From the NCBI RefSeq assembly GCF_008727755.1, contig NZ_CP044231.1, forward strand, positions 2,914,001 through 2,978,000: 64,000 nt of DNA, read 5' to 3'. Both the position numbers and the translations under genes were made by a program. The notes below the pieces were generated by a model. That model saw only the letters and a list, made by a program, of their open reading frames with translations, was not told the origin of the DNA and ran no database searches. Numbering within the stretch: the stretch's first letter is position 1; each line of letters begins with the position of its first letter. This DNA comes from Microbacterium caowuchunii. GTDB taxonomy: Bacteria; Actinomycetota; Actinomycetes; Actinomycetales; Microbacteriaceae. Below, one piece after another: positions 37,685-58,183 of the stretch.

Positions 37685-37740
37685 ATCACACCAGGCCGCC
37701 GACGCGCGCGGAACGCAAGGGGCCCGATGGCTGCTATCGG
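37685..37740 (-). promoter_or_regulatory. Regulon dyad 1 and -10 for the ABC importer operon
   Basis: Dyad CGATGGCTGCTATCGG (37725-37740; GAT at 37726, ATC at 37736). Minus-strand -10 candidate TGTGAT (37690-37685) starts 42 bp from the dyad centre. A separate inverted repeat CTGGC-TTCTAT-GCCAG lies at 37663-37678. Confidence 0.6.
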
Positions 37741-37804
37741 CGAGTTCGATGAGAAGGGGCGCGGCCCCGCGGGGCGGAGGGCCACCGGGATAGCGCGGTG
37801 CGGG

Positions 37805-38584
37805 TCAGTCCGCGATGAGCGTCCCGCCGTCGATGACGATGTTCTGACCGCTCACGAACGCGCCTCCCCACGATGCCAGCCAGACGACCGTGGCCCCCAC
37901 CTCCACGGGGTCGCCGAAGCGCCCGAGCGGGGTCTTGGCCAGACGGACGGCGGCCGCCTGCGGGTCCGCGGTGATCGGCCGGGCGAAGTCGGTGGCGATC
38001 ACACCGGGCGACAGGGCGTTCGCACGGATGCCGCGCGGACCCCACTGCACCGCGATGTTGCGGGCGAGCTGGGCGTTCGCGGCCTTCGTCACGCCGTATC
38101 CGCCGATCACGCTGTTCCCGCGGAGTCCGGCGAGACTCGACATGACCAGGAAGGTGCCACCGCCGCCGTCCGCCATCACCGGGAGCGTGTGCTCGGCCAG
38201 CAGGGCGACCGATCGCACGTGCAGCTCGTACATCCGGTCGAGCCGGTCCAGCGGGTCGGGCGCCGCGGGGTCGTCCAGCGCCACCCCGGCGTTAGCGAGC
38301 ACGGTGTCGATGCGTCCCCACCGGGCGACCGTTCCGGCGACGAGATCACCGAGTGCACCGGCATCCGTGACGTCGCAGTCCACCCCGCTCGCGCTGCCAC
38401 CGGCGGCGGTGATCTCCTCCGCCGCGCGCCGTGGTTCGCTGCCGGCGAGCCCGGCGATCACGACGTGCGCCCCGGCGGCGGCGAGCGCGTCGGCGCATCC
38501 GCGTCCGATACCGGTCGCACCGCCGGTGACGATCGCCACCTGCCCTTCGCACGAGAACATGGCGTGCAGCGCGCTCTCGATCAT
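37805..38584 (-). CDS. SDR-family oxidoreductase 1
   Basis: 259 residues: NAD(P)-binding GGATGIGRGCADAL, NAGV (LANAGVALDD), catalytic Ser in MSSLAG, and Tyr-x-x-x-Lys in GGYGVTKAANAQ, with C-terminal DGGTLIAD. Classical short-chain dehydrogenase with all catalytic residues. GGGAGG lies seven to eight bases before ATG 38584. Expected to oxidise a secondary alcohol or reduce a ketone in the island's pathway; substrate not predictable. Preceded by a regulon dyad and a strong -10 candidate. Confidence 0.92.
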   Translation of the reverse strand: MIESALHAMFSCEGQVAIVTGGATGIGRGCADALAAAGAHVVIAGLAGSEPRRAAEEITAAGGSASGVDCDVTDAGALGDLVAGTVARWGRIDTVLANAGVALDDPAAPDPLDRLDRMYELHVRSVALLAEHTLPVMADGGGGTFLVMSSLAGLRGNSVIGGYGVTKAANAQLARNIAVQWGPRGIRANALSPGVIATDFARPITADPQAAAVRLAKTPLGRFGDPVEVGATVVWLASWGGAFVSGQNIVIDGGTLIAD

Positions 38585-38627
38585 GGTCGTCCTCCCGTCC
38601 CGCCGGGCGCTCCGGCGGACGTGCCTC

Positions 38628-38681
38628 ACGCTAGGGAGACGATGCGGGCGCGCGAAGCCTGCGGCCGGGATACCAGCCATC
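38628..38681 (-). promoter_or_regulatory. Regulon dyad 2 and -10 for SDR 1
   Basis: Dyad GATACCAGCCATC (38669-38681, minus strand GATGGCTGGTATC). Minus-strand -10 TAGCGT (38633-38628) begins 42 bp from the centre. The dyad lies just past the end of the LysR gene, so it serves SDR 1. Confidence 0.7.
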
Positions 38682-38696
38682 GCCCGTGCGTCCGCG

Positions 38697-39659
38697 TCAG
38701 CCGGCGGGCCGGTCGCCCCACCGCTCGGCCTCGGCGTCCGGATCGGTGTCGGAGCCGAACTCCACGCGCTCGGCGACGGTGCGGAGGATGCCGAGGAACC
38801 AGCGCAGCGCCGGCTCGTTCGTGCGGGACGGGTGCCAGAACGCGGACTCCACCAGGGTGGACAGCTGCAGCGGGATGCGGGCGATCTGCAGATCGAGATC
38901 GTCCGCGTACCGGTCGGCGAGACGCGCCGGGACGAACCCGAACATGTCGGTTCCGGACACGAGGAAGGGTACGGGCAGGAATCCCGAGACGCTGCGTGCC
39001 ACCGGCGGCCGGACGGATGCGGCGGCGAGCGCGTCGTCCGCGAACATCACGACGTGCGGGGCGAAAACGACCTGCACGTACGGAAGCTCGGCGAGGTCTT
39101 CGAGGGTCAGCGCACCGTCCTTGAGACGGGGATGATCACGCCGGACGATGCAGGTCATGGCGTCGGAGAACAGGGACTGACGCTTACCCGGCACGCCATG
39201 CGCGGCGGAGGCGATGGCGACGTCCTCGCGGAGGAGATCGACCGGTCCGATGTTGTTCAGTGACCCGAACTCGACCGAGACGCCGGGCGCCTCGGTCTCC
39301 AGCACCCGCAGCAGTGGGGCGGTCATGACGGACAGCGCGTAGTCGGATGCGGTCAGCCGGAACTGACGATCGCTCGTGAGCGGATCGAACAACGGCCGCA
39401 GGTTGAACGTCCGCCCGACCTCGATGACGGCCTCGCGCACGATCGGCTGGAGGGCGAGGGCGCGCGGGGTGAGGGTGAAGGTGCGGCCGCTGCGCACCAG
39501 GAGCGGGTCGTCGAGGAGTTTGCGCAGCTTGGCGACCGCCCCGCTGACGGCGGGCTGGGTCAGTCCGATCGCCTCGCCGGCCCGGGTGAGGCTGCGCTCG
39601 GTGAGGATCGCGTCGAAGACGACGATGAGGTTGATGTCGATGTCCCGCAGATCACCCAT
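38697..39659 (-). CDS. LysR-type transcriptional regulator 1
   Basis: 320 residues. N-terminal winged HTH (about 10-67: INLIVVFDAILTERSLTRAG, LTQPAVSGAVAKLRKLL) and a periplasmic-binding-like effector domain ending in a charged tail. The HTH and the DINLIVVFDAIL start are of the NodD/NahR-like subgroup, whose members activate aromatic catabolism genes with an inducer. Transcribed in the same direction as SDR 1, 15 bp upstream of dyad 2. It is one of two LysR candidates to bind the island's dyads. No dyad is seen directly before this gene. Confidence 0.93.
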   Translation of the reverse strand: MGDLRDIDINLIVVFDAILTERSLTRAGEAIGLTQPAVSGAVAKLRKLLDDPLLVRSGRTFTLTPRALALQPIVREAVIEVGRTFNLRPLFDPLTSDRQFRLTASDYALSVMTAPLLRVLETEAPGVSVEFGSLNNIGPVDLLREDVAIASAAHGVPGKRQSLFSDAMTCIVRRDHPRLKDGALTLEDLAELPYVQVVFAPHVVMFADDALAAASVRPPVARSVSGFLPVPFLVSGTDMFGFVPARLADRYADDLDLQIARIPLQLSTLVESAFWHPSRTNEPALRWFLGILRTVAERVEFGSDTDPDAEAERWGDRPAG

Positions 39660-39750
39660 GCTGTCGAATTCGCCCCTCCGCGCCCCGGACTCAGCATAGC
39701 CAACCGGCCCGCGCGCCCGCGGAGGGGCGGACGCACGGGACGCGGGCGGC

Positions 39751-40713
39751 TCAGAGGCGGTCGGGGCCGTAGGTGCGTCGCGCGCGCGGGACCGTGTGGC
39801 CGGGGCTCACCGTCTCGACGATGCGGTTCTCGATGCTGCCGAGCCCTTCCACCGTCATGGTGACGACGTCGCCGACCTGCAGCGGCGGCGGGTCGAGCTC
39901 TCCGGTACGGCTCCAGCGCTCGGACAGTGCACCGGTCGAGGCCGTGCCGCTGGCGAGCACGTCGCCGGCGCCGACCCACGCGTCCCGCGACGCGTGGACG
40001 AGCATCTCCTCGAACGACCACGACATGTTGCGGAGGTTGTCGGTGCCGATGACCTCCCCGTTGACGGACACGGACATCTCCAGGGCGAACCTGTCCCCCT
40101 CGCGGAACGGCTCCAGCTCCTCGGGGGTCGTGATCCAGGGGCCGAGCGTGTTGGCGAAGTCCTTGCCCTTGGCGGGGCCGAGACCGATGCGCATCTCCGC
40201 GCCCTGGATGTCACGGGCGCTCCAGTCGTTGAAGATGCAGTACCCCGCGATGTGCCCCGCCGCCTCCTCGATGGGCACGTCCCGGACCGTGTTCTTCACG
40301 ATGGCTGCCACCTCCAGCTCGAAGTCGAGCTTCCGGGTGAACGGCGGCATCGGGATGCCGGCGCCCGTCGGCACCACGGACCACGGGTTCATGAACAGGA
40401 ACGCGGGTGCCTCGTACCACTGCTCGGGGACGGTGCCGTCGCCCGGCTCGCCCTTCTTCATCCCCGCGATGTGGCCCTCGAAGGCGAGGAAGTCGCGCAT
40501 CGCACGCGGCTGCACGGGGACCGCGAAGGTGGCGTCCGGGATCGGCCTGCGCTGCTGCTTGCCCGCCCGCACCACGACGTCGCGGCGGACGTCGGCGGGC
40601 GCCTGCAGGAGCGCGAGGATGTCGGGGTCCCCGGGGAGGTCCTGCACGCAGCCGTGGTGGACGATGCCGGTGTGGGTGATTCCGTTCTCGATATAGCGCG
40701 CGAAGCGGGGCAT
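39751..40713 (-). CDS. Fumarylacetoacetate hydrolase-family protein 1
   Basis: 320 residues. FAH catalytic and metal-binding segments: RKLDFELEVAAIVKN (Glu-x-Glu metal ligands), YCIFNDWSARDIQ (Asp ligand region), GPAKGKDFANTLGPW and LASGTASTGALSERW. Such enzymes cleave C-C bonds in acylpyruvates or hydrate/decarboxylate ring-cleavage products. Its start overlaps the stop of the upstream monooxygenase-like gene by one base (TGATG). It is closely similar in plan to the FAH protein at 54942, so the island has two paralogues. Third gene of the cyclase operon. Confidence 0.9.
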   Translation of the reverse strand: MPRFARYIENGITHTGIVHHGCVQDLPGDPDILALLQAPADVRRDVVVRAGKQQRRPIPDATFAVPVQPRAMRDFLAFEGHIAGMKKGEPGDGTVPEQWYEAPAFLFMNPWSVVPTGAGIPMPPFTRKLDFELEVAAIVKNTVRDVPIEEAAGHIAGYCIFNDWSARDIQGAEMRIGLGPAKGKDFANTLGPWITTPEELEPFREGDRFALEMSVSVNGEVIGTDNLRNMSWSFEEMLVHASRDAWVGAGDVLASGTASTGALSERWSRTGELDPPPLQVGDVVTMTVEGLGSIENRIVETVSPGHTVPRARRTYGPDRL

Positions 40714-41006
40714 CACGCGTCCAGCGTCGTATAGAAGTCGCGCTGCCGGACCTCCAGTGCCGGGATTGCCTGTCCGAGCGCCCACTGCTCGAAGTGCGGA
40801 TAGGTGCCGTGCGCCTTGAAGGCCTCCTCGTCGGTGTAGACCTCGAAGATGCGGAAGACGTTCGGCTCCTCCGGGCTCTGGTAGGCCTGGTAGTAGATGT
40901 TGCCGGGCTCGTCCCGGGACGCCGGGGAGAGCTTCTCGAGCGCGTCGCGCACGGTGTCCTCCTGTCCGGGCTTGGCGGTCCAGGTCGCGCTGCATACGAA
41001 GGCCAT
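40713..41006 (-). CDS. Antibiotic biosynthesis monooxygenase (ABM)-domain protein
   Basis: 97 residues, a single ferredoxin-like ABM fold: FVCSATWTAKPGQEDTVRDA, YYQAYQSPEEPNVFRIFEVY, and DEEAFKAHGTYPHFEQW, the last being the typical His-containing ABM segment. Homologues (YgiN-like) oxidise quinols or act as small dimeric accessory proteins. AAAGGA precedes ATG 41006 by about eight bases. Middle gene of the cyclase-ABM-FAH operon; a quinol or catechol substrate would fit the neighbourhood. Confidence 0.88.
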   Translation of the reverse strand: MAFVCSATWTAKPGQEDTVRDALEKLSPASRDEPGNIYYQAYQSPEEPNVFRIFEVYTDEEAFKAHGTYPHFEQWALGQAIPALEVRQRDFYTTLDA

Positions 41007-41066
41007 GGGTGGTCCTTTCACGGGTGCGGATGGTGGGTGGGCCGGCCGGCGGGCGCCGGCCGGTGG

Positions 41067-41834
41067 TCATTCGTCGAAGATCGCGACCGCGCGGGTCCAC
41101 CCCGCGGACGCGCCGCGGACCTTGGCCGGGAAGCACGCGACGGTGAACCCGAACGGGGGCAGGTCCTCGAGGTGCTGCAGTTTCTCGATCTGGCAGTAGC
41201 CGACCTCGGCACCCGCCTTGTGCCCCTCCCAGACGATCGACGGATCGCCGGTCTCCTCGAACTGCCGCCGGTTGATGCTGACCGGGAGGTCCCAGCCCCA
41301 CGCGTCGGTACCGACCACGCGCACCCCCTGCCCGGTGAGGTGCAGGGTGGCGTCCCGGCCGAAGCCGATGCCGGTGTCGATGTAGTCGTCGCGCCCGTAG
41401 GCCGCGGCCGCGACCGTGTTGGCCAGGACGATGTCGAAGGGCTGCAGCTCGTACCCGATGCGCTCGAGTTCGGCGTCGATGTCGGCCGGGGTGACCAGGT
41501 GACCGCTGGGCAGGTGACGCAGATCGAGCTTGACCCCCGGGCGGAAGAACCAGTCGATCGGCACCTCGTCGATGGTCCATGCCCGCTCGCCGTTGTTCAT
41601 CGTCGGGTGGTAGTGCCAGGGCGCGTCGACGTGCGTGCCGGCGTGCGTGGTGATCGTCACGGTCTCCGCTGCGAGCCCCTGCTCGTCGAGCAGCTGGTCG
41701 GGGCGGATGCCGTACATGGCGTGCATGTCCGTCCGGCCGCCGATGTGGTCCTTGTACTCGATCTTGGGCCGGAGGAACGGCGGATCGACGGGGATCACAT
41801 CGTCGAGGGGCATCGACAGATCGACGAAACGCAT
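41067..41834 (-). CDS. Cyclase-family (kynurenine formamidase-like) metal hydrolase
   Basis: 255 residues with the signature HAGTHVDAPWHY (HxGTHxDxPxH, metal-binding), early DLSMPLDDVIPVDPPFL, and GYCQIEKLQHLEDLPPFGF near the end. This family includes arylformamidases and isatin hydrolases, which open amide or lactam bonds by metal-activated water. AAAGGAG lies eight bases before ATG 41834. First gene of its operon; a regulon dyad sits 66-78 bp upstream. Confidence 0.9.
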   Translation of the reverse strand: MRFVDLSMPLDDVIPVDPPFLRPKIEYKDHIGGRTDMHAMYGIRPDQLLDEQGLAAETVTITTHAGTHVDAPWHYHPTMNNGERAWTIDEVPIDWFFRPGVKLDLRHLPSGHLVTPADIDAELERIGYELQPFDIVLANTVAAAAYGRDDYIDTGIGFGRDATLHLTGQGVRVVGTDAWGWDLPVSINRRQFEETGDPSIVWEGHKAGAEVGYCQIEKLQHLEDLPPFGFTVACFPAKVRGASAGWTRAVAIFDE

Positions 41835-41858
41835 GAGAACTCCTTTGTCGGCGCCCCC

Positions 41859-41912
41859 ATCCTCGCCGGGCGCACACCGGGGCGACACCGCCCCCGGCCC
41901 ATGGCTGGCATC
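41859..41912 (-). promoter_or_regulatory. Regulon dyad 3 and -10 for the cyclase operon
   Basis: Dyad CATGGCTGGCATC (41900-41912). Minus-strand hexamer GAGGAT (41864-41859), a weak -10, begins 42 bp from the centre. Confidence 0.5.
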
Positions 41913-41982
41913 GGCCGGGGAGGGTGTCGGATCCGGCTCAGGCGGGGATACGCCCCCGCACCAACCCGTGCCCCGGTCCGGC

Positions 41983-42036
41983 CATGGGTTGCATCGCCGA
42001 GGACGATGGCCTCGGCAGCACCGGGAGCCGTACGCT
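41983..42036 (+). promoter_or_regulatory. Regulon dyad 4 and -10 for the aldehyde dehydrogenase
   Basis: Dyad CATGGGTTGCATC (41983-41995). Plus-strand -10 TACGCT (42031-42036) begins 42 bp from the centre, with nothing resembling a -35 hexamer 17 bp before it. Dyads 3 and 4 are 83 bp apart and serve the two divergent transcripts. Confidence 0.65.
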
Positions 42037-42073
42037 CGCCACGACTCACCCATCGACGCAGGAGTGTGCCCGC

Positions 42074-43450
42074 ATGCCCATCGCCACCGTCAATCCGTTC
42101 ACCGGCCGGACCGAGCAGGAGTTCGAGGCGCACGACGACACCGAGGTCGAACGGCGCATCGCCGCCGCCGACGCCGCGTACCACTCCCTCAAGGGGACGA
42201 CGTTCGCGGAGCGCGCGGGGTGGATGCGGGCGGCCGCGGACCTGCTGGAGGAGGACGTCGAGGAGCTCGCCCGCCTCATCACGGTGGAGATGGGCCGCCC
42301 GATCGCCGGCGCTCGCGCCGAGATCCTGAAGAGCGCCAAGGGCCTGCGTTTCTACGCCGAGCACGCCGAGGGGTTCCTCGCACCCGAGCAGCTGGCCGAC
42401 CCGGCGAGGGTGGGCGCCTCCGCCGCCGGCACCCGGTACGCCCCCCTCGGCGTCGTGCTCGCGGTCATGCCGTGGAACTACCCGTTCTGGCAGGTGCTGC
42501 GCTTCGCCGGCCCCGCACTGATGGCCGGCAACACCGGCCTGCTCAAGCACGCCTCCAACGTGCCGCAGGCCGCTCTGTACCTCGACACGCTCTTCGAGCG
42601 CGCCGGTTTCCCGACGGGAGCCTTCCATTCGCTGCTCATCCCGGCGTCCCGGGTGGAGAACGTGCTGCGGGATCCGCGCGTGAAGGCCGCGACCCTGACC
42701 GGTTCCGAGCCCGCCGGGCGCTCCCTCGCCGCGATCGCCGGATCCGAGGTCAAGCACGTCGTGCTGGAACTCGGCGGGTCGGACCCCTTCATCGTGATGC
42801 CGAGCGCGGACATCGAGCGCGCGGCCGCCGTCGCCGTCACCGCCCGCAACCAGAACAACGGGCAGTCCTGCATCGCGGCGAAGCGCTTCATCGTGCACAC
42901 CGACGTGTACGAGGAGTTCGTCCGCCGGTTCACCGAGGGCGTGGCCGCCCTCACCGTCGGCGACCCCCTCGATGCCGCCACGGACATCGGCCCCCTCGCG
43001 ACCGAGTCCGGCCGGAACGAACTGGCCGAGCAGGTCGCGGACGCCCTGGCCCAGGGCGCGACGGCCCTGACCGGAGGGTACGTCCCGGAGCGTCCGGGAT
43101 GGTTCTACGCGCCGACCGTGCTCACGGACGTGACACCCGCCATGCGGCTGTATCTGGAGGAGGCGTTCGGTCCGGTGGCGACGGTGCACCGGGTCGCGGA
43201 CCAGCAGGAGGCGCTGCGCGTCGCGAACGGGACGACGTTCGGTCTCAGCTCATCGGTCTGGACCCGCGACCCGGACCAGCAGGACTGGTTCGTGGGCGCC
43301 CTCGACGCCGGCGCGGTCTTCGTCAACGGCATGACCGCCTCTCACCCCGAGCTTCCCTTCGGGGGTGTGAAGGACTCGGGCGTCGGACGCGAGCTCGCCG
43401 CTGCCGGCATCCGGGAGTTCTGCAACCTGCAGACCGTGTGGAGGGCCTAG
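42074..43450 (+). CDS. Aldehyde dehydrogenase (NAD(P)-dependent, succinate-semialdehyde-type)
   Basis: 458 residues. Catalytic Glu232 (LELGGSDPFI) and Cys266 (NNGQSCIAAKR), the PWNYPFWQ cofactor region near residue 133, and the C-terminal ELPFGGVKDSGVGRE. Similar in plan to GabD-type enzymes, which oxidise short semialdehydes. In this island it could oxidise the semialdehyde produced by extradiol ring cleavage. AGGAG lies ten bases before ATG 42074. Single-gene transcript on the plus strand, with its own regulon dyad. Confidence 0.93.
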   Translation: MPIATVNPFTGRTEQEFEAHDDTEVERRIAAADAAYHSLKGTTFAERAGWMRAAADLLEEDVEELARLITVEMGRPIAGARAEILKSAKGLRFYAEHAEGFLAPEQLADPARVGASAAGTRYAPLGVVLAVMPWNYPFWQVLRFAGPALMAGNTGLLKHASNVPQAALYLDTLFERAGFPTGAFHSLLIPASRVENVLRDPRVKAATLTGSEPAGRSLAAIAGSEVKHVVLELGGSDPFIVMPSADIERAAAVAVTARNQNNGQSCIAAKRFIVHTDVYEEFVRRFTEGVAALTVGDPLDAATDIGPLATESGRNELAEQVADALAQGATALTGGYVPERPGWFYAPTVLTDVTPAMRLYLEEAFGPVATVHRVADQQEALRVANGTTFGLSSSVWTRDPDQQDWFVGALDAGAVFVNGMTASHPELPFGGVKDSGVGRELAAAGIREFCNLQTVWRA

Positions 43451-43460
43451 CGAAGCGCGG

Positions 43461-43502
43461 CGCGCGGGCGTGGCGGTGCGGCGCGCACCCCACGCCTGCG
43501 CG
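43461..43502. terminator. Hairpin between convergent ALDH and oxidoreductase genes
   Basis: CGCGCGGGCGTGG (43461-43473) pairs with CCACGCCTGCGCG (43490-43502) with one mismatch, loop of 16. Positioned to end both converging transcripts. No U-tract. Confidence 0.55.
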
Positions 43503-43504
43503 GC

Positions 43505-44419: not shown

Positions 44420-44504
44420 GGATACCTCCTCGAGGCGCGCCCGAGGTGCGCCGGCTCATCGGTCTCGTGGCGAGCGTACTGAGCGGGGCCGCGCGCGACC
44501 AGCC

Positions 44505-45023
44505 TCAGCCGTGCTGGACGGCGATCTGCTCGGTCTCCAGCTGGACCGCCCATCCTTCGACGGTGCCCGCGTTCTCGAACTCCTCGATCTGCAGGATCCG
44601 CCGGCCGTGGTCCACGACGTGCGGCATGCTCGCGGTCACGAACGCGCTGACGCTCAGCCACGCGGACTCCTCGAAGGCGATGCCGTCGAAGACCAGCACG
44701 TTCGCGTCGATGATCTCGCGGGTCGCGACGGCGGCACGGGGGCTCGCCGCCGTCACCGCGCGGGCGCCGTTGACCTTGTTGGCCGCGACGACGCCGGCGA
44801 AGCCCTCGTCGACGACGAGGACCCCGAAGGAGTCGACCCCGGCATCCTGCTCCTCCACCACTGCGCGGGCGACACGGATGGCGAAGACAGGGTAGTCGTC
44901 GCCCGGGTCGAGGTCGTCGGCGCCGTGCCAGACGACGTCGAAGCCGGCGGCGACGGCGCGTGCCTCGAGCGCACGGCCGAGGACGTATCCGCCGTGGTCG
45001 GCGGCGAAGTGGATGCGGGTCAT
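44505..45023 (-). CDS. RpiB/LacA-LacB-family protein lacking the catalytic base
   Basis: 172 residues. The family N-terminus IHFAADHGGYVLGRALE and the segment GVVAANKVNGARAVTAASPR are clear, but the loop that carries the catalytic Cys in RpiB (VCGTGIG) reads VLVVDEGFAG. The mycobacterial-type Glu is also missing. It is therefore unlikely to work as a normal ribose-5-phosphate isomerase. It might act on an unusual sugar phosphate or have a new role. Starts four bases after the FAD oxidase gene, so it is cotranscribed with it. Confidence 0.8.
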   Translation of the reverse strand: MTRIHFAADHGGYVLGRALEARAVAAGFDVVWHGADDLDPGDDYPVFAIRVARAVVEEQDAGVDSFGVLVVDEGFAGVVAANKVNGARAVTAASPRAAVATREIIDANVLVFDGIAFEESAWLSVSAFVTASMPHVVDHGRRILQIEEFENAGTVEGWAVQLETEQIAVQHG

Positions 45024-45027
45024 GGTG

Positions 45028-46427: not shown

Positions 46428-46481
46428 AGCCTACGAATCGGCGCGGGCGCGGGCCACGCGCCCAGCGGGATACCAGGGATC
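46428..46481 (-). promoter_or_regulatory. Regulon dyad 5 and -10 for the FAD oxidase operon
   Basis: Dyad GATACCAGGGATC (46469-46481) overlaps the stop codon of the MFS gene. Minus-strand -10 TAGGCT (46433-46428) begins 42 bp from the centre. Confidence 0.65.
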
Positions 46482-49495: not shown

Positions 49496-49548
49496 AATGT
49501 ATGACGCCGCGCCCACGGCGGCCATGCGTGGTCCGGATACCATGCATC
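49496..49548. promoter_or_regulatory. Regulon dyad 6, shared by dioxygenase and LysR 2
   Basis: Dyad GATACCATGCATC (49536-49548). Minus-strand -10 TACATT (49501-49496) starts 41 bp from the centre and would serve the dioxygenase operon. On the plus strand TACCAT (49538-49543) lies inside the dyad, six bases before the GTG of LysR 2: a leaderless promoter buried in the operator. Confidence 0.65.
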
Positions 49549-49549
49549 T

Positions 49550-50467
49550 GTGGCTAACGGTGATCCGGATCTGAACCTGCTCATCGCGCTGCGCGCCCTC
49601 TTGGAGGAGGCGAACGTCACCCGGGCGGGTGAACGCATCGGCCTCGGCCAGTCGACCATGTCCTCGGCCCTGGCCCGGTTGCGCACGGTGTTCCAGGACG
49701 AGTTGCTCGTCCGGGTGGGCCGGGACTACGAGCTCACCCCGCTGGCCCGCGAGATCCTGCCCCAGGTCCAGCTCACGCTGCCCCTGCTCGCGCAGGCGCT
49801 GGGGCAGGACGAGCTCTTCGACCCGGCCACCAGCCGGCGCCGCTTCAGCATCCAGATCTCCGACTACGCGGCGATCGAGCTGCGCCCGCTGTTCGACCTG
49901 GCCTCCGCCGCCGCACCGGGCGTCCGGTTCGATTTCCTGAAACTGCCCCCCGAGCCGACGGATGCCGAGCGGCACCTGCTCGCCCATGACTTCGTCGTGC
50001 TGACCCCGGGTATCGGCATCCACGCGGAGGGGTTCGAGGTGCTCCGCGACGAGTACGTCGTGGTCGCGGACCGCGACAACCCCCGTGTGGCCGACGGCAC
50101 GATCTCGGAGGCGGACTTCCTCGCGAGCCCCTTCATCCGCTGCGACTTCGGCCGAGCGCACGTCATGCCGATCGAGCGCCGGCTGCATGAACTGGACCTG
50201 CACCCCCGCGTGCGGGTGACCACGTCCACCCTCGTCTCCGTCCCGTTGATCGTCGGCGGGACCGACCTCATCGGACTGGTCCCCCGTCGCCTCGTGGAGC
50301 GGAACGCGGCGGTGACCGGGACGGTCGCCATCCCCACGCCGTTCGACCCGGTCGAGCTGATCCTGCGCATGTGGTGGCACCCCGCCCACACGCACGATCC
50401 CGCCCACGCGTGGTTCCGCGAACTCGCCGCCCGGACGCTCGCCCCGGGCGCGACCGTGCCTTCCTGA
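49550..50467 (+). CDS. LysR-type transcriptional regulator 2 (NodD/NahR-like)
   Basis: 305 residues: HTH region DLNLLIALRALLEEANVTRA and GLGQSTMSSALARLRTVF (residues about 7-60), then an effector domain. The DLNLL start is typical of the NodD/NahR/PcpR subgroup. The GTG at 49550 is preceded directly by dyad 6, so the protein would repress its own leaderless promoter while activating the divergent dioxygenase: a classical LysR arrangement. It is the more likely of the two LysR proteins to bind the dyads. Confidence 0.93.
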   Translation: MANGDPDLNLLIALRALLEEANVTRAGERIGLGQSTMSSALARLRTVFQDELLVRVGRDYELTPLAREILPQVQLTLPLLAQALGQDELFDPATSRRRFSIQISDYAAIELRPLFDLASAAAPGVRFDFLKLPPEPTDAERHLLAHDFVVLTPGIGIHAEGFEVLRDEYVVVADRDNPRVADGTISEADFLASPFIRCDFGRAHVMPIERRLHELDLHPRVRVTTSTLVSVPLIVGGTDLIGLVPRRLVERNAAVTGTVAIPTPFDPVELILRMWWHPAHTHDPAHAWFRELAARTLAPGATVPS

Positions 50468-50471
50468 TCAT

Positions 50472-50527
50472 CCGATAGCAGGCATCGGACCGGCCGATGG
50501 GCGGCACGGACCCGGCGCCCCTAGCGT
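50472..50527 (+). promoter_or_regulatory. Regulon dyad 7 and -10 for the monooxygenase operon
   Basis: Dyad CCGATAGCAGGCATCGG (50472-50488), the most symmetric copy with 5-bp arms. Plus-strand -10 TAGCGT (50522-50527) begins 42 bp from the centre; no recognisable -35. Confidence 0.7.
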
Positions 50528-50535
50528 CTTCCCCA

Positions 50536-50553
50536 GGGTGCGGTGTCGCACCC
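50536..50553 (+). promoter_or_regulatory. Hairpin at the 5' end of the monooxygenase mRNA
   Basis: GGGTGCG-GTGT-CGCACCC, perfect 7-bp stem with a tetraloop. It would form within a few bases of the predicted transcript start, ahead of the ribosome site, and may protect the mRNA 5' end. Confidence 0.5.
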
Positions 50554-50570
50554 GGAAGTGGGAGACGAAG

Positions 50571-51698: not shown

Positions 51699-52237
51699 GC
51701 CGGTTCCGCACCCCGCGTCGCATCGTCACCGGGCACGACGCGGCGGGGGTCTCGGTCGTCGTCAGCGACGCCCCCGTCCCCGTCACGCGGGAGCTCCCCC
51801 AGGACGGGGTGGCCTTCCACGAGGTGTGGGAGACGGCCGGTGCACCGGCGGCGATCGGCGCGGCCTTCACCGACCCGACGATCGGGGAGATCACCGTCCC
51901 GCCGCCCGTCCGGGGCACCCGCATCCGGATCAACGAGTTCCTGCCGGGGCACCTCGACGCCCGCGGCCTCCAGTCGCCCGTGCACCGCACCGAATCGATC
52001 GACTACGGCATCGTGCTGGAGGGGGAGATCACCCTCGTGCTCGACGACAGCGAGGTCACCGCGCGCGCCGGCGACATCGTCGTCCAGCGGGGCACCGACC
52101 ACGCGTGGGCCAACCGCGGCGAGGACGTCGCCCGGGTGGCGTTCATCCTCGTGGACGGATGCTTCGGCGCGGACGTGCTCGAGGTGCTCCCCGAGGACGT
52201 CCGCGACGGGCTGATGCTGCACGGACCCCAGGGCTGA
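51695..52237 (+). CDS. Cupin-domain protein
   Basis: 180 residues. The cupin barrel is in the C-terminal half: SIDYGIVLEGEITLVLDDSE (motif 1 without the full HxH set) and GDIVVQRGTDHAWANRGED (motif 2 with His). Metal ligands are partly present (His in HRTESIDYG, His in DHAW). Similar proteins accompany ring-cleavage operons, some with dioxygenase or isomerase roles. GTGA overlap with the monooxygenase. Exact function unknown. Confidence 0.85.
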   Translation: MSRFRTPRRIVTGHDAAGVSVVVSDAPVPVTRELPQDGVAFHEVWETAGAPAAIGAAFTDPTIGEITVPPPVRGTRIRINEFLPGHLDARGLQSPVHRTESIDYGIVLEGEITLVLDDSEVTARAGDIVVQRGTDHAWANRGEDVARVAFILVDGCFGADVLEVLPEDVRDGLMLHGPQG

Positions 52238-52245
52238 GCCGGACC

Positions 52246-52665
52246 ATGCACGTCGACCACATCGGTGTCTCCGTCGGGGACCTGGACGCGCAGCGGGACT
52301 GGTACCAGCGCGCCTTCGGCTTCCCGACGGCGCGGCCGTTCGAGATCGCGCCGGTCGGCCTGCGGGGCGTCTTCCTCCTGGGTCCCGACGACATCGCCAT
52401 CGAGCTGCTGGAGCGGCGCGGTTCGGCCTCCGTCCGCGGTGCCGCCGCGACGCCGCCGGACGCGCTGCTGGACCGCGGCTGGGCGCACGTGTGCCTGCGG
52501 GTGGACGACCTCGACGCCGCGTTCGCCCAGGTGGTCGCCGCCGGCGCCACCATCCTCACCCCGCCCGGGGATTCGCCCGAACCCGGGGTGCGCTTCGCTT
52601 TCGTCACCGACCCGGAAGGCAATCTCATCGAACTCCTGGACCGTCCCGGACCGGTGCGCGCATGA
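52246..52665 (+). CDS. VOC-superfamily protein (single domain)
   Basis: 139 residues: MHVDHIGVSVGDLDAQRDWY at the start and a second beta-alpha-beta unit WAHVCLRVDDLDAAFAQVVA, ending FVTDPEGNLIELLDRP. His4 or His5 region, His in AHVCL and Glu in NLIELL are likely metal ligands. Glyoxalase/methylmalonyl-CoA-epimerase-like fold. May isomerise or cleave the ring-fission product. Its stop overlaps the SDR start (ATGA). Confidence 0.88.
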   Translation: MHVDHIGVSVGDLDAQRDWYQRAFGFPTARPFEIAPVGLRGVFLLGPDDIAIELLERRGSASVRGAAATPPDALLDRGWAHVCLRVDDLDAAFAQVVAAGATILTPPGDSPEPGVRFAFVTDPEGNLIELLDRPGPVRA

Positions 52666-53501
52666 TCGCGGCATCCTCCCCGCAGGGCGCGGGCGGCGTC
52701 GCGCTTCCGGGGCTCTCCGGCAACCTCTTCGTCGTCACCGGTGCCGCCGGGGGCCAGGGCGCGCAGGAGGCGCTCCTGCTCGCCGCGAACGGTGCCGACG
52801 TCATCGCCGCCGATGTACGGGAGGACGCCCCCGACCTGCGGGCCGCGGCGGACGGCCTGCCGGGGTCGGTGACCTACCGGCGCCTGGACGTGACGTCCGA
52901 GGAGGCGTGGCAGGACCTCGCCGACTCCCTGGCCGGGCGTGCGGTGAAGGGACTCGTCAACAATGCCGGCGTGACCCAGCGCACCCGCATCGGCGACGTC
53001 GTCCGCGAGGACTGGGACCGCGTCCTCTCGATCAACGTCACCGGCCCCATGCTGGGCATCCAGGCCCTCCTCCCGCTCATGGGCCCGGGTTCCTCGATCG
53101 TGAACATCGGCTCCGCCGCAGGGCTCACCGGGCATTACACCGCCGCGTACACGACCAGCAAGTGGGCGCTGCGCGGCCTCACCCACTCGTGCGTGACGGA
53201 GCTCGGGCCCCGCGGCATCCGAGTGAACATCGTCCACCCGGGGTACATCCGCACCGAGATGACCGCCGACGCGCCCGCACCCTTCCTGGACGCCAACGTG
53301 ACGATCGCGCCGCTGCACCGCGGCGGCGAGCCCGAAGAGGTCGCCAACGTCGTGGTGTTCCTGCTCTCGGATGCGGCCGCCTACGTCACCGGCGCCGAGA
53401 TCGGCGTGGACGGCGGGCAATTCCGCTCCGGCGTCGCCACCTTCCTCTCCGAGGCGGTGCGCTCCGCGCAGCATCCCACCGCGTCCGCACTCCCCCACTG
53501 A
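52662..53501 (+). CDS. SDR-family oxidoreductase 3
   Basis: 279 residues: TGAAGGQGAQEALLLAANG cofactor motif, NNAG (LVNNAGVTQRT), Ser in IGSAAGL, and Tyr-x-x-x-Lys in AYTTSKWALRG, with the C-terminal GAEIGVDGGQFRSG. All catalytic residues are in place. Likely a dehydrogenase step of the operon pathway. The C-terminus is about 15 residues longer than usual and Ser/Ala/His-rich. Fourth gene of the operon. Confidence 0.92.
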   Translation: MIAASSPQGAGGVALPGLSGNLFVVTGAAGGQGAQEALLLAANGADVIAADVREDAPDLRAAADGLPGSVTYRRLDVTSEEAWQDLADSLAGRAVKGLVNNAGVTQRTRIGDVVREDWDRVLSINVTGPMLGIQALLPLMGPGSSIVNIGSAAGLTGHYTAAYTTSKWALRGLTHSCVTELGPRGIRVNIVHPGYIRTEMTADAPAPFLDANVTIAPLHRGGEPEEVANVVVFLLSDAAAYVTGAEIGVDGGQFRSGVATFLSEAVRSAQHPTASALPH

Positions 53502-53541
53502 CCTTCCCCCGACCAGCAGTACCCCCGAAGGAGCTCTCCCT

Positions 53542-54720
53542 ATGTTCATGTACTACCCGACCAACTACGTGTGGAGCATGGCGGTCGTCGCCTCGCTCAA
53601 CAACGGTGGCTTCATCGACGAGGTCGACAAGGCCGCCCGCCCCGTGCTCGAGGCGTCCCAGCAGGGCGACGACGTGGGTACCGAGCTGCTGTACGCCTCC
53701 TGGAAGGCCGTCGCCGACCGCCTCCTCGCCGCCGCCCAGACCGACGAGGCACGCGGCTGGAAGCTCTCCGCATCCGACAAGTACTACCGCGCGGCGCTGT
53801 ACACCTCGCAGTCCGAGCGACTGCAGTCCCCGAAGTGGGAGGGCCGCAAGGCCGCGTACCAGCAGTCGATCGACCTGCTGCTCAAGCACGTGGAACTCGG
53901 CGGCGTGCCGCTGACCACGGTGGACGTGCCCTACAAGGGCGACGACGCGCCGGCCGGGTCCGCCCTGCCGGGCTACTTCTACCGGGCGCCCGGGGACGGG
54001 CCGCGTCCGCTCATCGTGATGTGGAACGGCCTCGATTCCACCAAGGAGATGATGTACACCTCCCGGTTCCCGCAGCAGATGGCCCGCCGGGGCATCTCGG
54101 TGCTGATGATGGACCCGCCCGGATCCGGTGAGGCGCTGCGCATGCGGGACCTGCACGCCCGGTACGACACCGAGGTGTGGGCCGCATCCGTCATGGACTG
54201 GGTCGAGGAGAACGCCGCGGAGCTCGGCGTCGACCCGAAGAAGGTCGGCCTGGTCGGCTGGTCGCTCGGGGGCTACTACGTCCCGCGCGCCGCCGCGTTC
54301 GAGAAGCGCATCGCCCTCGCCGTCGCGTGGGGCGCGAACTACGACTGGGCCGCCGTCCAGGAGGCGCGTCGCCGCCGCGAGGGCGAGAACCCCGTGCCGC
54401 ACTACTGGGACCACGTCTACTGGGTGTTCGGCGCGAGCGACGAGGCGGACTTCCTCGAGAAGACGAAGAACATGCGCCTGGAGGGCGTGGTCGACAAGAT
54501 CACCGTGCCCTTCCTGGTGACCCACGGCGAGGGTGACCGGCAGATCCCGGTGAAGTACGCGTACGACGAGTACGAGGCCGCGGTGAACTCCCCCAAGCGC
54601 GAGCTGCGCATCTTCACCCAGGCGGAGGGCGGCGCCGAGCACATCGGCATCGACAACCTGGAGTACGTCGGCGAGTTCACCGCCGACTGGATCGCGGAGA
54701 CGTTCGCCGAGCTCGGCTGA
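53542..54720 (+). CDS. FrsA/DUF1100-type alpha/beta hydrolase (aryl-ketone C-C hydrolase-like)
   Basis: 392 residues. An N-terminal helical cap (about 1-125) precedes an alpha/beta-hydrolase fold. The nucleophile is Ser241 (VGWSLGGYYVPRA), the acid Asp332 (GEGDRQIPV) and the base His367 (GGAEHIGID). The plan matches 2,6-dihydroxypseudooxynicotine hydrolase of the Arthrobacter nicotine pathway, which splits a C-C bond in an aryl ketone. Similarity is in architecture; the substrate is not proven. AAGGAG precedes ATG 53542. Last gene of the operon, followed by a strong terminator. Confidence 0.88.
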   Translation: MFMYYPTNYVWSMAVVASLNNGGFIDEVDKAARPVLEASQQGDDVGTELLYASWKAVADRLLAAAQTDEARGWKLSASDKYYRAALYTSQSERLQSPKWEGRKAAYQQSIDLLLKHVELGGVPLTTVDVPYKGDDAPAGSALPGYFYRAPGDGPRPLIVMWNGLDSTKEMMYTSRFPQQMARRGISVLMMDPPGSGEALRMRDLHARYDTEVWAASVMDWVEENAAELGVDPKKVGLVGWSLGGYYVPRAAAFEKRIALAVAWGANYDWAAVQEARRRREGENPVPHYWDHVYWVFGASDEADFLEKTKNMRLEGVVDKITVPFLVTHGEGDRQIPVKYAYDEYEAAVNSPKRELRIFTQAEGGAEHIGIDNLEYVGEFTADWIAETFAELG

Positions 54721-54727
54721 CCCCACG

Positions 54728-54769
54728 AAAGACGGATGCCGCGGCCCTGAGGTCGCGGCATCCGTCTTT
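54728..54769 (+). terminator. Strong terminator hairpin after the hydrolase operon
   Basis: AAAGACGGATGCCGCG (54728-54743) pairs perfectly over 16 bp with 54754-54769, loop of 10, ending in TCTTT. The best intrinsic terminator in the window. Confidence 0.85.
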
Positions 54770-54842
54770 CTGCTCGCCCTTCTGGGGCACCGCCCGCGCC
54801 CGCCGTCCCCCGCGCGCGCACGCGCCGCCCGTCCCCCGCGCG

Positions 54843-54926
54843 CGCACAACGGCGGAGATCCCCCCTGACACGCCGGGGCCCTGGTGGGAGCCGCGGGGTG
54901 TCGGGCAGGATCTCCGCCGTTGTGCG
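54843..54926. repeat. Family A palindromic element, copy 2
   Basis: 84 bp. Outer arms CGCACAACGGCGGAGATC (54843-54860) and its exact complement (54909-54926); inner GGGGTGTCG as in the other copies. Located between convergent genes, after the terminator. Confidence 0.9.
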
Positions 54927-54941
54927 GAGGGGCGGTCCGAC

Positions 54942-55907
54942 TCAGCGGTGCCGCAACCGCGGGCGCGTCCGGGCCCGGGGGATGGCCGGCGCCGGCACGC
55001 GCTCACCCACGACGTTCACGATCTCCCCGACGCCCTCGATCAGCATGCGCACCTCGTCACCCGGCTCCAGCGGCGGGAGGGCGCTGCCGCGGCCCCACAG
55101 CTCGCCGAGGCATCCGCCGTTGCCGACGGTGCCCGAACCCAGCACGTCACCGGGCACGACGACGGAGTTGCGTGCCGCGTAGGCCACGAGCTCGGGGAAG
55201 GGCCAGCCCATGTTCGACACGAGGTCCTCGCCGACGAGCGCCCCGTTGACGTACACCTCGGCCCGCACGGCCAGGAAGCCCTCGCCGTCGAGGTACGGAT
55301 CCAGCTCGTCGGCGGTGACGATCCAGGGCCCCAGCGTCATCCCGAAGTCTTTGCCCTTCGCCGGCCCCAGCCGCACCTTCATCTCCCGCGCCTGCAGGTC
55401 CCGAGCCGACCAGTCGTTCATCACGGTGTAACCGAAGATGTGGGATGCCGCCGCATCCACGTCCAGGTTCTCCCCGGTCGAGCCGTCGACACCGCCGATG
55501 ACGGCGGCCAGCTCCAGCTCGAAATCGAGACGTCGCGTCTCGGGCACCGCGACGACGTCGCCGGTCGCGCGCACCGTGTGCGGGTTCGTGAAGTAGAAGG
55601 TCGGCGCCTCGTGCCATTCGGCCGGCACGTCGCTCTTGCCCTCGACGCCGGCGCTGACCCCCTCGACGTGCTCCTCGAAGGCCACGAAGTCACGGATCGT
55701 GGTCGGGACGAGGGGCGCCAGCAGACGCACCTCCGCCAGCGGGACCCCGGTCTCCTGCCTCGCGCGCTCGAAGAGGCTGCGGGCCGCGGCCACTCCGCCC
55801 CGCAGGACCTCCGCGACCGTCAGCGCGTCCGGGAAGGGGATCACGGCACCCTCGGAGACGAAGCCCTCGCCCGTCGCTCCCTCGTGGTCCCACCGTGCGA
55901 TCTTCAT
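54942..55907 (-). CDS. Fumarylacetoacetate hydrolase-family protein 2
   Basis: 321 residues. FAH segments: RRLDFELELAAVIGG (metal-binding Glu pair), YTVMNDWSARDLQ, GPAKGKDFGMTLGPW, and LGSGTVGNGGCLGELWGRG. Closely parallels the FAH protein at 39751 in length and motifs, so both probably act on related acylpyruvate-like substrates. Follows the MBL gene by 66 bp that include a GTC/GTG-rich simple repeat (about 55922-55952). Second gene of the MBL operon. Confidence 0.9.
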   Translation of the reverse strand: MKIARWDHEGATGEGFVSEGAVIPFPDALTVAEVLRGGVAAARSLFERARQETGVPLAEVRLLAPLVPTTIRDFVAFEEHVEGVSAGVEGKSDVPAEWHEAPTFYFTNPHTVRATGDVVAVPETRRLDFELELAAVIGGVDGSTGENLDVDAAASHIFGYTVMNDWSARDLQAREMKVRLGPAKGKDFGMTLGPWIVTADELDPYLDGEGFLAVRAEVYVNGALVGEDLVSNMGWPFPELVAYAARNSVVVPGDVLGSGTVGNGGCLGELWGRGSALPPLEPGDEVRMLIEGVGEIVNVVGERVPAPAIPRARTRPRLRHR

Positions 55908-55973
55908 CCGTGCTCCTTCGTCCTGGTCGTCGTCGTGGTCGTGGTCGTCGGCAGCATGCCCGGCGCCGTCGCG

Positions 55974-56888
55974 CTACGCATGGCAGGAGAGCGGGCGCGA
56001 TCCGTTGTACTCGTACATGTCCTGCCACGCCGCCGCGAAATCGGGGTGGCCGCCGTCCAGCTCGGCGAGGACCCGGTGCAGGTTGCCGACGATGCGCTCG
56101 GTCTCCGCGAGCTCCGCGAACCTGCCGAGATCCAGACCCCGCGCCGCCTCCGCCGCGGTGAGCCCCCGCGCGTGGGCATCGGCGGCCGCACCCATCAGGA
56201 ACCGCAGATAGTCCGCGACCGGCTCGAAGAGCTCGGGTCCGCCGACGGGCCCGTGCCCGGGGACCACCGTGGCCGGCTCGAGCGCGGCCATCTGATCGAG
56301 CGCCCGCAGCCATCCCGCGGGCGAGCCGGACAGCACGAAGGGCGTGCCCCCGTGGAAGACGAGGTCCCCCGTGAACAGCACCCGCTCCTGCGGGAGCCAG
56401 ACGAACGCGTCGCCCGGCGTGTGGGCGGGCCCGCCCGGGTGGCGCACCTCGATCCGCTGATCGCCCGGCGCGATCGTCAGGGACTCGTCGAAGACGATCG
56501 TGGGCAGACGGGGCTGCACGTCACCCTGTACGTAGGGATCGAAGATGTGCGCGGCCATCGCGTGCGGGCGACGGAGGTCCGCCGCGACCGTCCGGTGCGC
56601 GATGATCTCGGCATCCGGGAGCAGGGATGCGCCGTTGCAGTGGTCGGGGTGGGAGTGCGTGAGCACCACGCGGCGCACCGGGGAATCGGTCACGCCGGAG
56701 ACGGCGCGCAGGTAGTCACGGGTGCGCTGCTCCGTGGAGGTGACATCGATGCTCGTCGCCCCGTCGGGGCCGTCGATCAGCCCCATGTTGTTGATCATCC
56801 AGCCGCCGTCGGGCTGGATGTACGCCCATACCCGGTCGGCGATCTGCTCCATCCGGGGCGCGGCATCCCGAGAATTGTCCTGAGCCAT
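55974..56888 (-). CDS. Metallo-beta-lactamase-fold hydrolase
   Basis: 304 residues with the metal motif HSHPDHCNG (HxHxDH, about residues 78-83), a further His in VRHPGGPAHTPGD, Asp in FTGDLVF and His in VPGHGPVGG: a full two-metal MBL site. Members act as lactonases, thioesterases or hydrolases. In the island it may hydrolyse a lactone or thioester intermediate. Start ATG 56888; dyad 8 lies about 100 bp upstream. Confidence 0.88.
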   Translation of the reverse strand: MAQDNSRDAAPRMEQIADRVWAYIQPDGGWMINNMGLIDGPDGATSIDVTSTEQRTRDYLRAVSGVTDSPVRRVVLTHSHPDHCNGASLLPDAEIIAHRTVAADLRRPHAMAAHIFDPYVQGDVQPRLPTIVFDESLTIAPGDQRIEVRHPGGPAHTPGDAFVWLPQERVLFTGDLVFHGGTPFVLSGSPAGWLRALDQMAALEPATVVPGHGPVGGPELFEPVADYLRFLMGAAADAHARGLTAAEAARGLDLGRFAELAETERIVGNLHRVLAELDGGHPDFAAAWQDMYEYNGSRPLSCHA

Positions 56889-56947
56889 GAGCGTGGAGCC
56901 TCCTGCGACGGTGAAAGACCCGGCCGTCGTCGGCCGGGGGACGCTCC

Positions 56948-57001
56948 ATCGTGTCAACGCCGCCGGGGCTCGGCAATCCGGAATCGGCCATGACTCGTAT
57001 C
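56948..57001 (-). promoter_or_regulatory. Regulon dyad 8 and weak -10 for the MBL-FAH operon
   Basis: Dyad CATGACTCGTATC (56989-57001), the least conserved copy. Minus-strand hexamer CACGAT (56953-56948) begins 42 bp from the centre. Confidence 0.45.
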
Positions 57002-58177: not shown

Positions 58178-58183
58178 ATCGGA

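Follow-up and report, generated by a model that had tools for sequence, protein, structure and literature searches.

The nod box, the operator of the rhizobial NodD system, is described as a 47-bp box with ATC-N9-GAT palindromes (PMC5596368), and we parse the search pattern given in the Methods of PMC4782375 as ATY-N9-RAT-N7-ATY-N9-RAT. The canonical LysR site is presented as a T-N11-A box near -65 (PMC4834489, PMC5603801). Among catabolic systems, ThnR of the tetralin pathway is a single LysR with a reported direct effect on four promoters or more, including a close divergent pair (PMC4834489); PnpR and PnpM are two LysR proteins with a common binding region at one promoter (PMC5603801); and FdeR, of flavonoid (fde) catabolism in Herbaspirillum, is described with an intergenic operator of 60-bp footprint, shared with an aromatic catabolic operon (PMC10799723).

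The island studied here lies in the window, i.e. the whole 64,000-nucleotide stretch of Microbacterium caowuchunii DNA that was analysed. Like ThnR, it would form a multi-promoter LysR regulon, yet the primary ThnR sites are given as centred at -64 or -75/-76 (PMC4834489), whereas the island core lies at about -54 everywhere, counted from inferred starts. As with PnpR/PnpM, two LysR regulators may serve one catabolic pathway; the RBS reported for the former is GTT-N11-AAC (PMC5603801), while the island pair is kept over many genera. With FdeR the likeness is in layout, operator grammar aside: the operator between a LysR gene and its neighbour is shared with a catabolic operon (PMC10799723). 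The nod box is matched by the half-site array of distant loci, and NodD2 of NGR234 by LysR2, which is 50% identical to it in the HTH region and 30% over the full length. However, the window sites keep the inner dyad only, at times with one outer half-site, and, unlike in the NodD regulon, eight copies stand before catabolic operons. Nodulation families were absent from the listed Pfam and NCBIfam matches of the island genes scanned.

The original prediction proposed a single regulon over the island operons, with a LysR-type activator and eight dyads, each with a -10-like hexamer at 42 bp from the dyad centre in seven cases and 41 in one. All eight dyads and their hexamers were recovered in place (Table 1), with AT-N7-AT invariant in 8/8. 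The comparative evidence (27 related loci, outer half-sites, distant arrays) supports an island-wide regulon under a putative LysR-type activator acting at a fixed distance, apparently a nod-box-type switch serving a breakdown pathway.

Table 1. Dyads, -10-like hexamers, outer half-sites and LysR genes of the island (window positions; matches of dyads are to GATRSCWGSYATC)
Feature	Position	Strand	Remarks
Dyad 1	37726..37738	-	exact GATRSCWGSYATC; 5' of ABC importer operon (SBP-ATPase-permease)
TGTGAT, -10-like, +42 of dyad 1	37685..37690	-	
Outer half-site ATC, N9 before dyad 1	37748..37750	-	
Dyad 2	38669..38681	-	exact; 5' of SDR1
TAGCGT, -10, +42 of dyad 2	38628..38633	-	
LysR1, companion of LysR2	38697..39659	-	Pfam HTH_1 and LysR_substrate above cut-offs
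Dyad 3	41900..41912	-	one mismatch; 5' of cyclase-ABM protein-FAH1-LysR1 operon
GAGGAT, -10-like, +42 of dyad 3	41859..41864	-	
Dyad 4	41983..41995	+	three mismatches; 5' of ALDH
TACGCT, -10, +42 of dyad 4	42031..42036	+	
Outer half-site GAT, N9 after dyad 4	42005..42007	+	
Dyad 5	46469..46481	-	one mismatch; 5' of FAD oxidase-RpiB-zinc ADH
TAGGCT, -10, +42 of dyad 5	46428..46433	-	
Dyad 6	49536..49548	-	one mismatch; between divergent VOC dioxygenase (-) and LysR2 (+, GTG at 49550)
TACATT, -10, +41 of dyad 6	49496..49501	-	
LysR2, likely dyad reader (predicted)	49550..50467	+	Pfam HTH_1 and LysR_substrate above cut-offs
Dyad 7	50474..50486	+	exact; 5' of FAD monooxygenase-VOC2-SDR3-alpha/beta hydrolase
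TAGCGT, -10, +42 of dyad 7	50522..50527	+	
Outer half-site GAT, N9 after dyad 7	50496..50498	+	
Dyad 8	56989..57001	-	three mismatches; 5' of MBL-fold gene and FAH2
CACGAT, -10-like, +42 of dyad 8	56948..56953	-	
Outer half-site ATC, N9 before dyad 8	57011..57013	-	

When the dyads were oriented to their downstream operons, the mean -10-like score was highest at +42, at 5.0 against 2.75 for the offset in second place; the dyad at 49536 had its own peak at 41 (TACATT). The unit also recurs in orthologous islands: a dyad with a -10 at 41-43 was found in 75 of 271 gene upstreams tested (74 distinct) from 27 related loci, two of which come from one contig (L046, L057); upstreams were filtered by at least 45% identity and an alignment start by residue 25, and related genomes are non-independent samples. 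Permuted matrices gave a mean of 1.7 of 271 and a maximum of 58, the high counts presumably being permutations that nearly restore the motif. It is mainly operon-first genes that carry the unit (FAD monooxygenase, 18/22; VOC dioxygenase, 15/24; ABM, 9/12; cyclase, 6/7; ALDH, 7/14; FAD oxidase, 8/19), and in the same 27 loci it was found in 0/80 upstreams of six usually internal genes (RpiB, 0/13; zinc ADH, 0/12; VOC2, 0/21; SDR3, 0/20; FAH1, 0/12; permease, 0/2). One of three ATPase upstreams in relatives also bears it, as do only 5 of 22 SDR2 upstreams, none of ten LysR1 upstreams and, unlike window dyad 2, none of seven SDR1 upstreams. A homologue of the MBL gene was absent from all 27 islands, with a single one in L071.

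Over 83 dyads of relatives, offset 42 scores 2.16 and offsets outside 41-43 average -5.93 (sd 0.78). Identity is 0.31-0.46 in the spacer versus 0.71-0.85 in the dyad; the dyad-to-hexamer spacing is kept while the spacer sequence diverges. The weak hexamers of the window gain support from these loci, since TGTGAT lies at 42 before SBP in L057, as at dyad 1, and CAGGAT is found at three of six cyclase sites (the others being GAGTAT, TTGGAT and CATGAT). At ALDH sites of relatives the first dyad base, C, is kept in 7/7 and TACGCT in 5/7; TACATT, at 41 in dyad 6, stands at 42 in L044, L045 and L052. The divergent VOC dioxygenase and LysR2 pair is likewise kept, with the shared dyad that lies at 49536 in the window.

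Outer half-sites are enriched around the dyads. Over the 110 sites described below, ATC at -18 was the top of 42 offsets (count 11 vs a mean of 2.1) and GAT at +16 the top of 32 (12 vs 1.7), the 23 exact rows including four both-direction repeats; in a scan of symmetric offsets over these sites, the next-best one (26 at 42) is the position of the -10. ATC-N9-GAT (T-N11-A) boxes are enriched over the relatives and present in 4/8 window sites, distal or proximal, two of them distal. The original prediction took a centre near -54 as the LysR geometry, which departs from the canonical box near -65; it would fit as the centre of a longer array whose ATC-N9-GAT boxes are centred at -65 and -43. Within the window the array ATC-N9-GAT-N7-ATC-N9-GAT is never complete, with two or three of the four half-sites present (one outer half-site in 4/8 dyads, both in 0/8), and its sites miss the rhizobial 46-base nod-box pattern by 14-22 mismatches of 31. 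The tetramer reading of the window thus rests on the relatives. The absence of a clear -35 at the good -10 copies was also part of the original prediction and holds in part: T at +19, compatible with a -35 or with a nod-box remnant, is found in 64% of 110 sites (a set that leaves out dyads inside annotated matches and counts some palindromes in both directions), so that the -35 is not entirely absent. Four dyads have a CGATG nearby, on varying sides, which is the outer half-site.

Whole arrays are found at distant LysR2-like loci, in the genera Nonomuraea, Actinomadura and Streptomyces. AT-N10-GAT-N7-ATC-N10-AT, with the outer half-sites scored as AT only, lies 5' of 22 of 52 distant LysR genes against a resampled mean of 0.015 (here and below, resampled controls come from a first-order Markov model and differ from exact shuffles). 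The nod-box pattern itself was matched with fewer than 10 mismatches of 31 at 28 of the 52 loci, including one Bordetella bin (L122), while the minimum of 260 resampled controls was 10; the remaining 24/52 did not pass this threshold. The best locus has two mismatches (29 of 31 positions), and the 26 best of the 52 span 2-8. The same scan recovers the boxes in two rhizobial control records with nodD genes. The relatives suggest that the dyad is the core of a nod box.

In our view, each of the eight dyads is likely to form the inner pair of half-sites in a LysR operator of the nod-box type, on which a LysR2 tetramer would act at fixed phase. One operator copy would stand in this phase before each of eight island operons, with a LysR tetramer, most likely LysR2, centred at -54. 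Of its two dimers, the distal one would occupy the ATC-N9-GAT box at -65 and the proximal one that at -43, beside a poor -35; recognition would rest on the inner dyad, because this clade has mostly degenerate outer half-sites. In the presence of an inducer, presumably aromatic or phenolic, the tetramer would bring RNA polymerase to the -10, whose first base is 42 bp away from the centre. The tetramer at 49536 would also lie over the lysR2 start, as in the usual LysR autorepression.

Both regulators have the N-terminal HTH_1 and C-terminal LysR_substrate domains of the LysR family. They have their closest solved chains in common, 2uyf/1uth (E of 1e-39 for LysR2 and 8e-36 for LysR1), whose titles say no more than 'regulatory protein' or 'LysR-type regulatory protein' and which we take to be DntR; together with the aromatic catabolic context, this likens them to what we presume is the DntR/NahR subfamily. 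The two were proposed as readers on an equal footing, and here they separate: GAT-N7-ATC lies 5' of 14/28 LysR2 orthologues and 0/26 LysR1 orthologues (among the 81 distant upstreams scanned, L004 at least belongs to LysR2 of the window itself), making LysR2 the likelier reader. That LysR1, or a mixed LysR1/LysR2 tetramer, reads the dyads instead of LysR2 alone seems to us possible but rather unlikely. LysR1 does accompany LysR2 in the genomes tested: among 150 family genomes, the seven with LysR2 at 49% or more are precisely those with LysR1 at no less than 50% identity (E of 1e-60 or lower), and LysR1 also occurs in 18/18 further LysR2-bearing genomes (16 at 49-86%, two distant at 42%), a test covering the genomes of 18 of 79 loci. 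The genes are adjacent and divergent in five distant loci, and the recognition helix of LysR1 retains the QPA core of NodD, where island LysR2 proteins have QST or QSS. Yet, besides the asymmetry in upstream dyads, 20 of the 22 distant loci with a full array have no LysR1-like gene in the stretch fetched. A heterodimer is not supported by half-site asymmetry either, because mixed GATA/GATG half-sites are not in excess (47/110 vs 53.7 expected). Against our main reading, GAT-N7-ATC and ATC-N9-GAT were both absent between the LysR1/LysR2 pairs of L069, L070, L071, L074 and L077. A three-half-site array was not found at Sphingomonas L119, a LysR1-like locus with VOC dioxygenase, cyclase and FAH1 homologues. 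A further LysR of this genome, its third (C1:233769-234632), was considered and set aside: a single GAT-N7-ATC, at 233772, falls within the edge of its match, and the 2.6 kb read contain no ATC-N9-GAT.

Alternatively, a regulator from some other family, such as GntR or IclR, could act from -54 as a dimer on a compact site of 13 bp. In the island sites nothing apart from the -10 is as strongly conserved as the inner dyad, and a PcaR/PcaU-type IclR gene lies in ORF 57212-58537. But the motif is continuous with the nod-box-like arrays of LysR2-like loci and, as far as their flanks were fetched, the 27 islands contain no homologue of the IclR gene, which has weak matches (33% and 27%) in two larger stretches; we regard this reading as quite improbable.

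The dyad is not equally frequent at unrelated sites. Exact GATRSCWGSYATC occurs at three places in the 3,262,719-bp genome, all of them in the island (reversed control: 0), and with one mismatch at 33 places (reversed control: 10), seven of them in the island, i.e. six dyads and a coding match at 40300. A regulon reaching outside the island was rejected, since 0/26 of the one-mismatch places outside it in the whole genome carry TANNNT at 41-43; the best composite score among them is 19.0, with TCCTAT. Ranked by composite score, the eight dyads (15.0 to 24.5) take the first eight places in the window, but the weakest are not beyond chance singly, because the top scores of 20 resampled windows range from 10.5 to 19.3. 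That palindromes and GC-poor hexamers were simply selected by eye is a coincidence we practically discard: the hexamers were chosen after being seen, GAT-N7-ATC by itself is frequent in the window (31 places vs 11.6 expected) and the relaxed dyad with up to two mismatches is not enriched (14 vs 9.5 expected; 10/100 shuffles reach 14), but the mean of 5.0 was reached by 0/5000 random site sets (maximum 3.62) and by 0/5000 sets with each site moved 2-30 bp (maximum 4.25), and the unit recurs in relatives never seen when the prediction was made.

A wider reading, which we put forward tentatively and a little short of probable, is that the nod box would not be a rhizobial invention: it would belong to an ancient clade of LysR regulators, whose operator also works in the aromatic catabolism of free-living Actinomycetota, such as the three genera above. 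In Microbacteriaceae and neighbours it would have shrunk to GAT-N7-ATC in step with a helix change from QPAMSAA to QSTMSSA, and copies of it would have been placed, always in the same phase, before the operons of a catabolic island under a constant LysR pair, which perhaps forms a mixed tetramer that responds to a plant phenolic. What may surprise more is the presence of nod boxes outside rhizobia, tying an operator known from symbiosis to catabolic LysR operators of actinobacteria. About 100 predicted promoters with one geometry are a natural data set for how LysR tetramers position RNA polymerase, and they predict the regulon of an uncharacterised pathway and give a sequence rule for finding its counterparts.

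The island pathway is probably aromatic. Searching plasmids with the island sequence yielded three small, uninformative matches. The FAD monooxygenase has 798 homologues, with generic names among the 120 listed, and is nearest to 2-methyl-3-hydroxypyridine-5-carboxylic acid oxygenase; the hydrolase is nearest to 'Yellowish-green 1-like protein' and 2,6-dihydroxy-pseudo-oxynicotine hydrolase, the dioxygenase to the unnamed 3b59 and the oxidase to EncM.

All eight dyads of the original prediction lie where it had placed them, as a check of the sequence confirmed, and each faces a gene whose candidate start codon lies beyond the hexamer (importer SBP, SDR1, cyclase, ALDH, FAD oxidase, VOC dioxygenase, FAD monooxygenase and an MBL-fold gene). 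AT-N7-AT is invariant among them; the match to GATRSCWGSYATC is exact in three, with one mismatch in three and three mismatches in two. The fixed hexamer distance was borne out too: scoring offsets 10 to 109 (bp from dyad centre to first base of a -10-like hexamer) gave a single clear peak, at 42, reached by 0/5000 randomly placed and 0/5000 jittered site sets. With a composite matrix (dyad plus hexamer) the same eight sites took the top eight scores in the window, 15.0 to 24.5, against up to 10.5 to 19.3 in resampled windows; built on these very dyads, the matrix is circular for the window, not for relatives. Counting against the prediction, the dyad word itself (≤2 mismatches) shows no enrichment across the window (14 vs 9.5 expected, with 14 reached by 10 of 100 shuffles). 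A whole-genome scan, proposed along with the prediction, found the exact consensus three times, always inside the island. One-mismatch places number 33, seven of them in the island, and none of the 26 outside has TANNNT at 41-43. Since the exact consensus occurs in 93 of 150 family genomes (commonly 0-2 copies, up to 8), the unusual feature is the placement of the dyad, not the word count.

Positions of dyads, regulators and related features in the window and in loci of relatives
Feature	Location	Position	Remark
Dyad	window	37726	one outer half-site, upstream
Dyad	window	38669	
Dyad	window	41900	
Dyad	window	41983	one outer half-site, downstream
Dyad	window	46469	
Dyad	window	49536	
Dyad	window	50474	one outer half-site, downstream
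Dyad	window	56989	one outer half-site, upstream
LysR1 gene	window	38697-39659	
LysR2 gene	window	49550-50467	
Genes adjoining island	window	57212-60925	PcaR/PcaU-type IclR regulator, thiolase, two CoA-transferase subunits
Dyad centre	L071	13667	TAGCGT at 42 one way, TACCTT at 43 opposite way
Dyad centre	L062	5820	-10-like hexamer at 42-43 on either side
Dyad centre	L060	13965	-10-like hexamer at 42-43 on either side
Dyads	L049	20184, 20235	51 bp apart between divergent operons
Nod-box-like sequence	L170	G174:C2:220571	elsewhere in an actinobacterial genome
Nod-box-like sequence	L178	G172:C61:294303	elsewhere in an actinobacterial genome

The geometry recurs in relatives. Of 150 family genomes, 7 have a LysR2 orthologue at 49% identity or above. 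Scanning named genomes left 79 loci, of which 27, from Microbacterium, Leucobacter, Tersicoccus, Pseudolysinimonas, Agromyces, Rhodoluna, Aurantimicrobium, Demequina and other bins, served as orthologous islands. In these 27 islands, 75 of the 271 genes tested are preceded by a dyad with a -10 at 41-43 (74 of these upstreams being distinct), and operon-first genes prevail among the carriers: FADmono 18/22, VOCdiox 15/24, ABM protein 9/12, cyclase 6/7, ALDH 7/14, FADox 8/19, SBP 2/2, SDR2 5/22, MFS 2/6, LysR2 2/29 and ATPase 1/3. The combination was found upstream of no usually internal gene (RpiB 0/13, ADHzn 0/12, VOC2 0/21, SDR3 0/20, FAH1 0/12, permease 0/2, LysR1 0/10), nor of SDR1 (0/7), FAH2 (0/5) or the hydrolase (0/5) of relatives. 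The offset is 42 in 61 of the 75 units, 43 in nine and 41 in five. Among 83 dyads picked regardless of hexamer, offset 42 scores 2.16 and the next best -3.52, while all but 41-43 average -5.93 (sd 0.78). Pairwise identity is 0.31-0.46 in the spacer vs 0.71-0.85 in the dyad, so that distance is kept more than sequence. Promoter-specific quirks are inherited: ALDH dyads of relatives begin with C in 7/7 cases and have TACGCT in 5/7, cyclase hexamers read CAGGAT in 3/6, and the SBP hexamer TGTGAT is common to L057 (a Microbacterium fluvii locus) and the window. In three loci (L071, L062 and L060) hexamers flank one dyad on both sides, which apparently then serves two divergent promoters. Paired dyads between divergent operons, 83 bp apart in the window (41900 and 41983) and closer in L049, possibly loop or cooperate.

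The prediction had also read a centre near -54 as LysR geometry. Canonical LysR sites, according to PMC4834489 and PMC5603801, have T-N11-A boxes near -65 and a second site near -35; the core sits one helical turn off, and this part stands if the dyad belongs to a longer, nod-box-type array, which our data suggest. According to PMC5596368 the nod box contains ATC-N9-GAT palindromes, and the search pattern given in the Methods of PMC4782375 we parse as ATY-N9-RAT-N7-ATY-N9-RAT, with AT-N7-AT central. If the island dyad is its middle, ATC is expected at -18 and GAT at +16. Both proved to be the top offsets across 110 oriented sites, of which the window contributes 8 and relatives 102: ATC occurs there 11 times (average 2.1 for 42 offsets) and GAT 12 times (average 1.7 for 32 offsets). 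One exact outer half-site is present in 23 rows, four being repeats of a site counted in both directions, and both together in 0/110; scored as AT alone, outer half-sites number 39/110, while the remaining symmetric offsets average 7.1 (sd 4.8). T at +19 (64% of sites, vs 20% for the mirror A at -19) may be what is left of a -35, or else the T that follows the outer GAT of a nod box. Assuming a start 12 bp past the hexamer's first base, boxes of outer plus inner half-site would have their centres at -65 and -43. At the dyads we infer binding, a tetramer, activation, transcript starts and an inducer.

Full arrays occur at distant loci. Upstream of 52 LysR genes about 32-46% identical, the array (outer half-sites scored as AT) was found in 22 cases against 0.015 in resampled sequences, and GAT-N7-ATC in 25 against 3.3. 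When spacings 3 to 15 were compared, only GAT-N7-ATC (29/81) and ATC-N9-GAT (35/81) stood out, the next reaching 9. The published pattern matched 28/52 distant loci with fewer than 10 mismatches of 31, the minimum being 10 among 260 resampled controls. Matches of 2-8 mismatches precede a LysR2-like gene in Nonomuraea, Actinomadura, Streptomyces and other actinobacteria (loci L096, L098, L093, L087, L078, L073, L079 and others), the best being two Nonomuraea loci (L096 and L098, 2 mismatches). In the rhizobial control records, two in number (L168, L169), the same scan recovered boxes with 1-5 mismatches, and the NGR234 box (L168) is identical to that of L096 at 34/46 positions. Genome-wide, a variant pattern gave one or two copies in 8/10 actinobacterial genomes and its reversed control none. 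At many of these distant loci, genes homologous to FAH2, the VOC dioxygenase and the FAD monooxygenase of the island lie on the opposite strand.

LysR2 and LysR1 share their closest solved relatives, chains 2uyf/1uth/1utb, which we take to be DntR. GAT-N7-ATC lies between 150 bp upstream and 20 bp inside the gene in 14/28 LysR2 vs 0/26 LysR1 orthologues, and at four loci of relatives (L044, L045, L046, L067) 8 bp separate the dyad centre from the estimated start of lysR2. A LysR1-like gene is absent from the fetched stretch in 20/22 distant loci with the array. LysR2 is therefore favoured as reader of the dyads. LysR1 occurs in exactly the same 7/150 family genomes and in all 18 of the additional genomes tested, with 49-86% identity in 16 of them and 42% in two, and the two genes are divergent neighbours in five distant loci, so LysR1 looks like part of the system. 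Half-site statistics gave no sign of a mixed LysR1/LysR2 dimer. Distant LysR2-like proteins have a NodD-like recognition helix (QPAMSAA or similar), and the altered one of island LysR2 (QSTMSSA) is in line with an operator cut back to its core.

Multi-promoter LysR regulons are already known (ThnR). What appears new, as far as our searches reach, is a single fixed geometry throughout an island, a nod-box-type operator pared down to the inner dyad, and the occurrence, in free-living actinobacteria, of nod boxes at catabolic LysR loci; for the last, the titles and abstract openings listed from mostly open-access literature showed nothing on the subject. The island substrate is probably aromatic, given the extradiol-type VOC dioxygenase, FAD monooxygenase, ABM protein and FAA hydrolases. 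The genes adjoining the island at 57212-60925 have no dyad among the best 20 composite matches. In Microbacterium fluvii, a single contig carries two LysR2-type genes, accompanied by gene sets that bear dyads (L046 and L057), at a distance of about 15 kb from each other.
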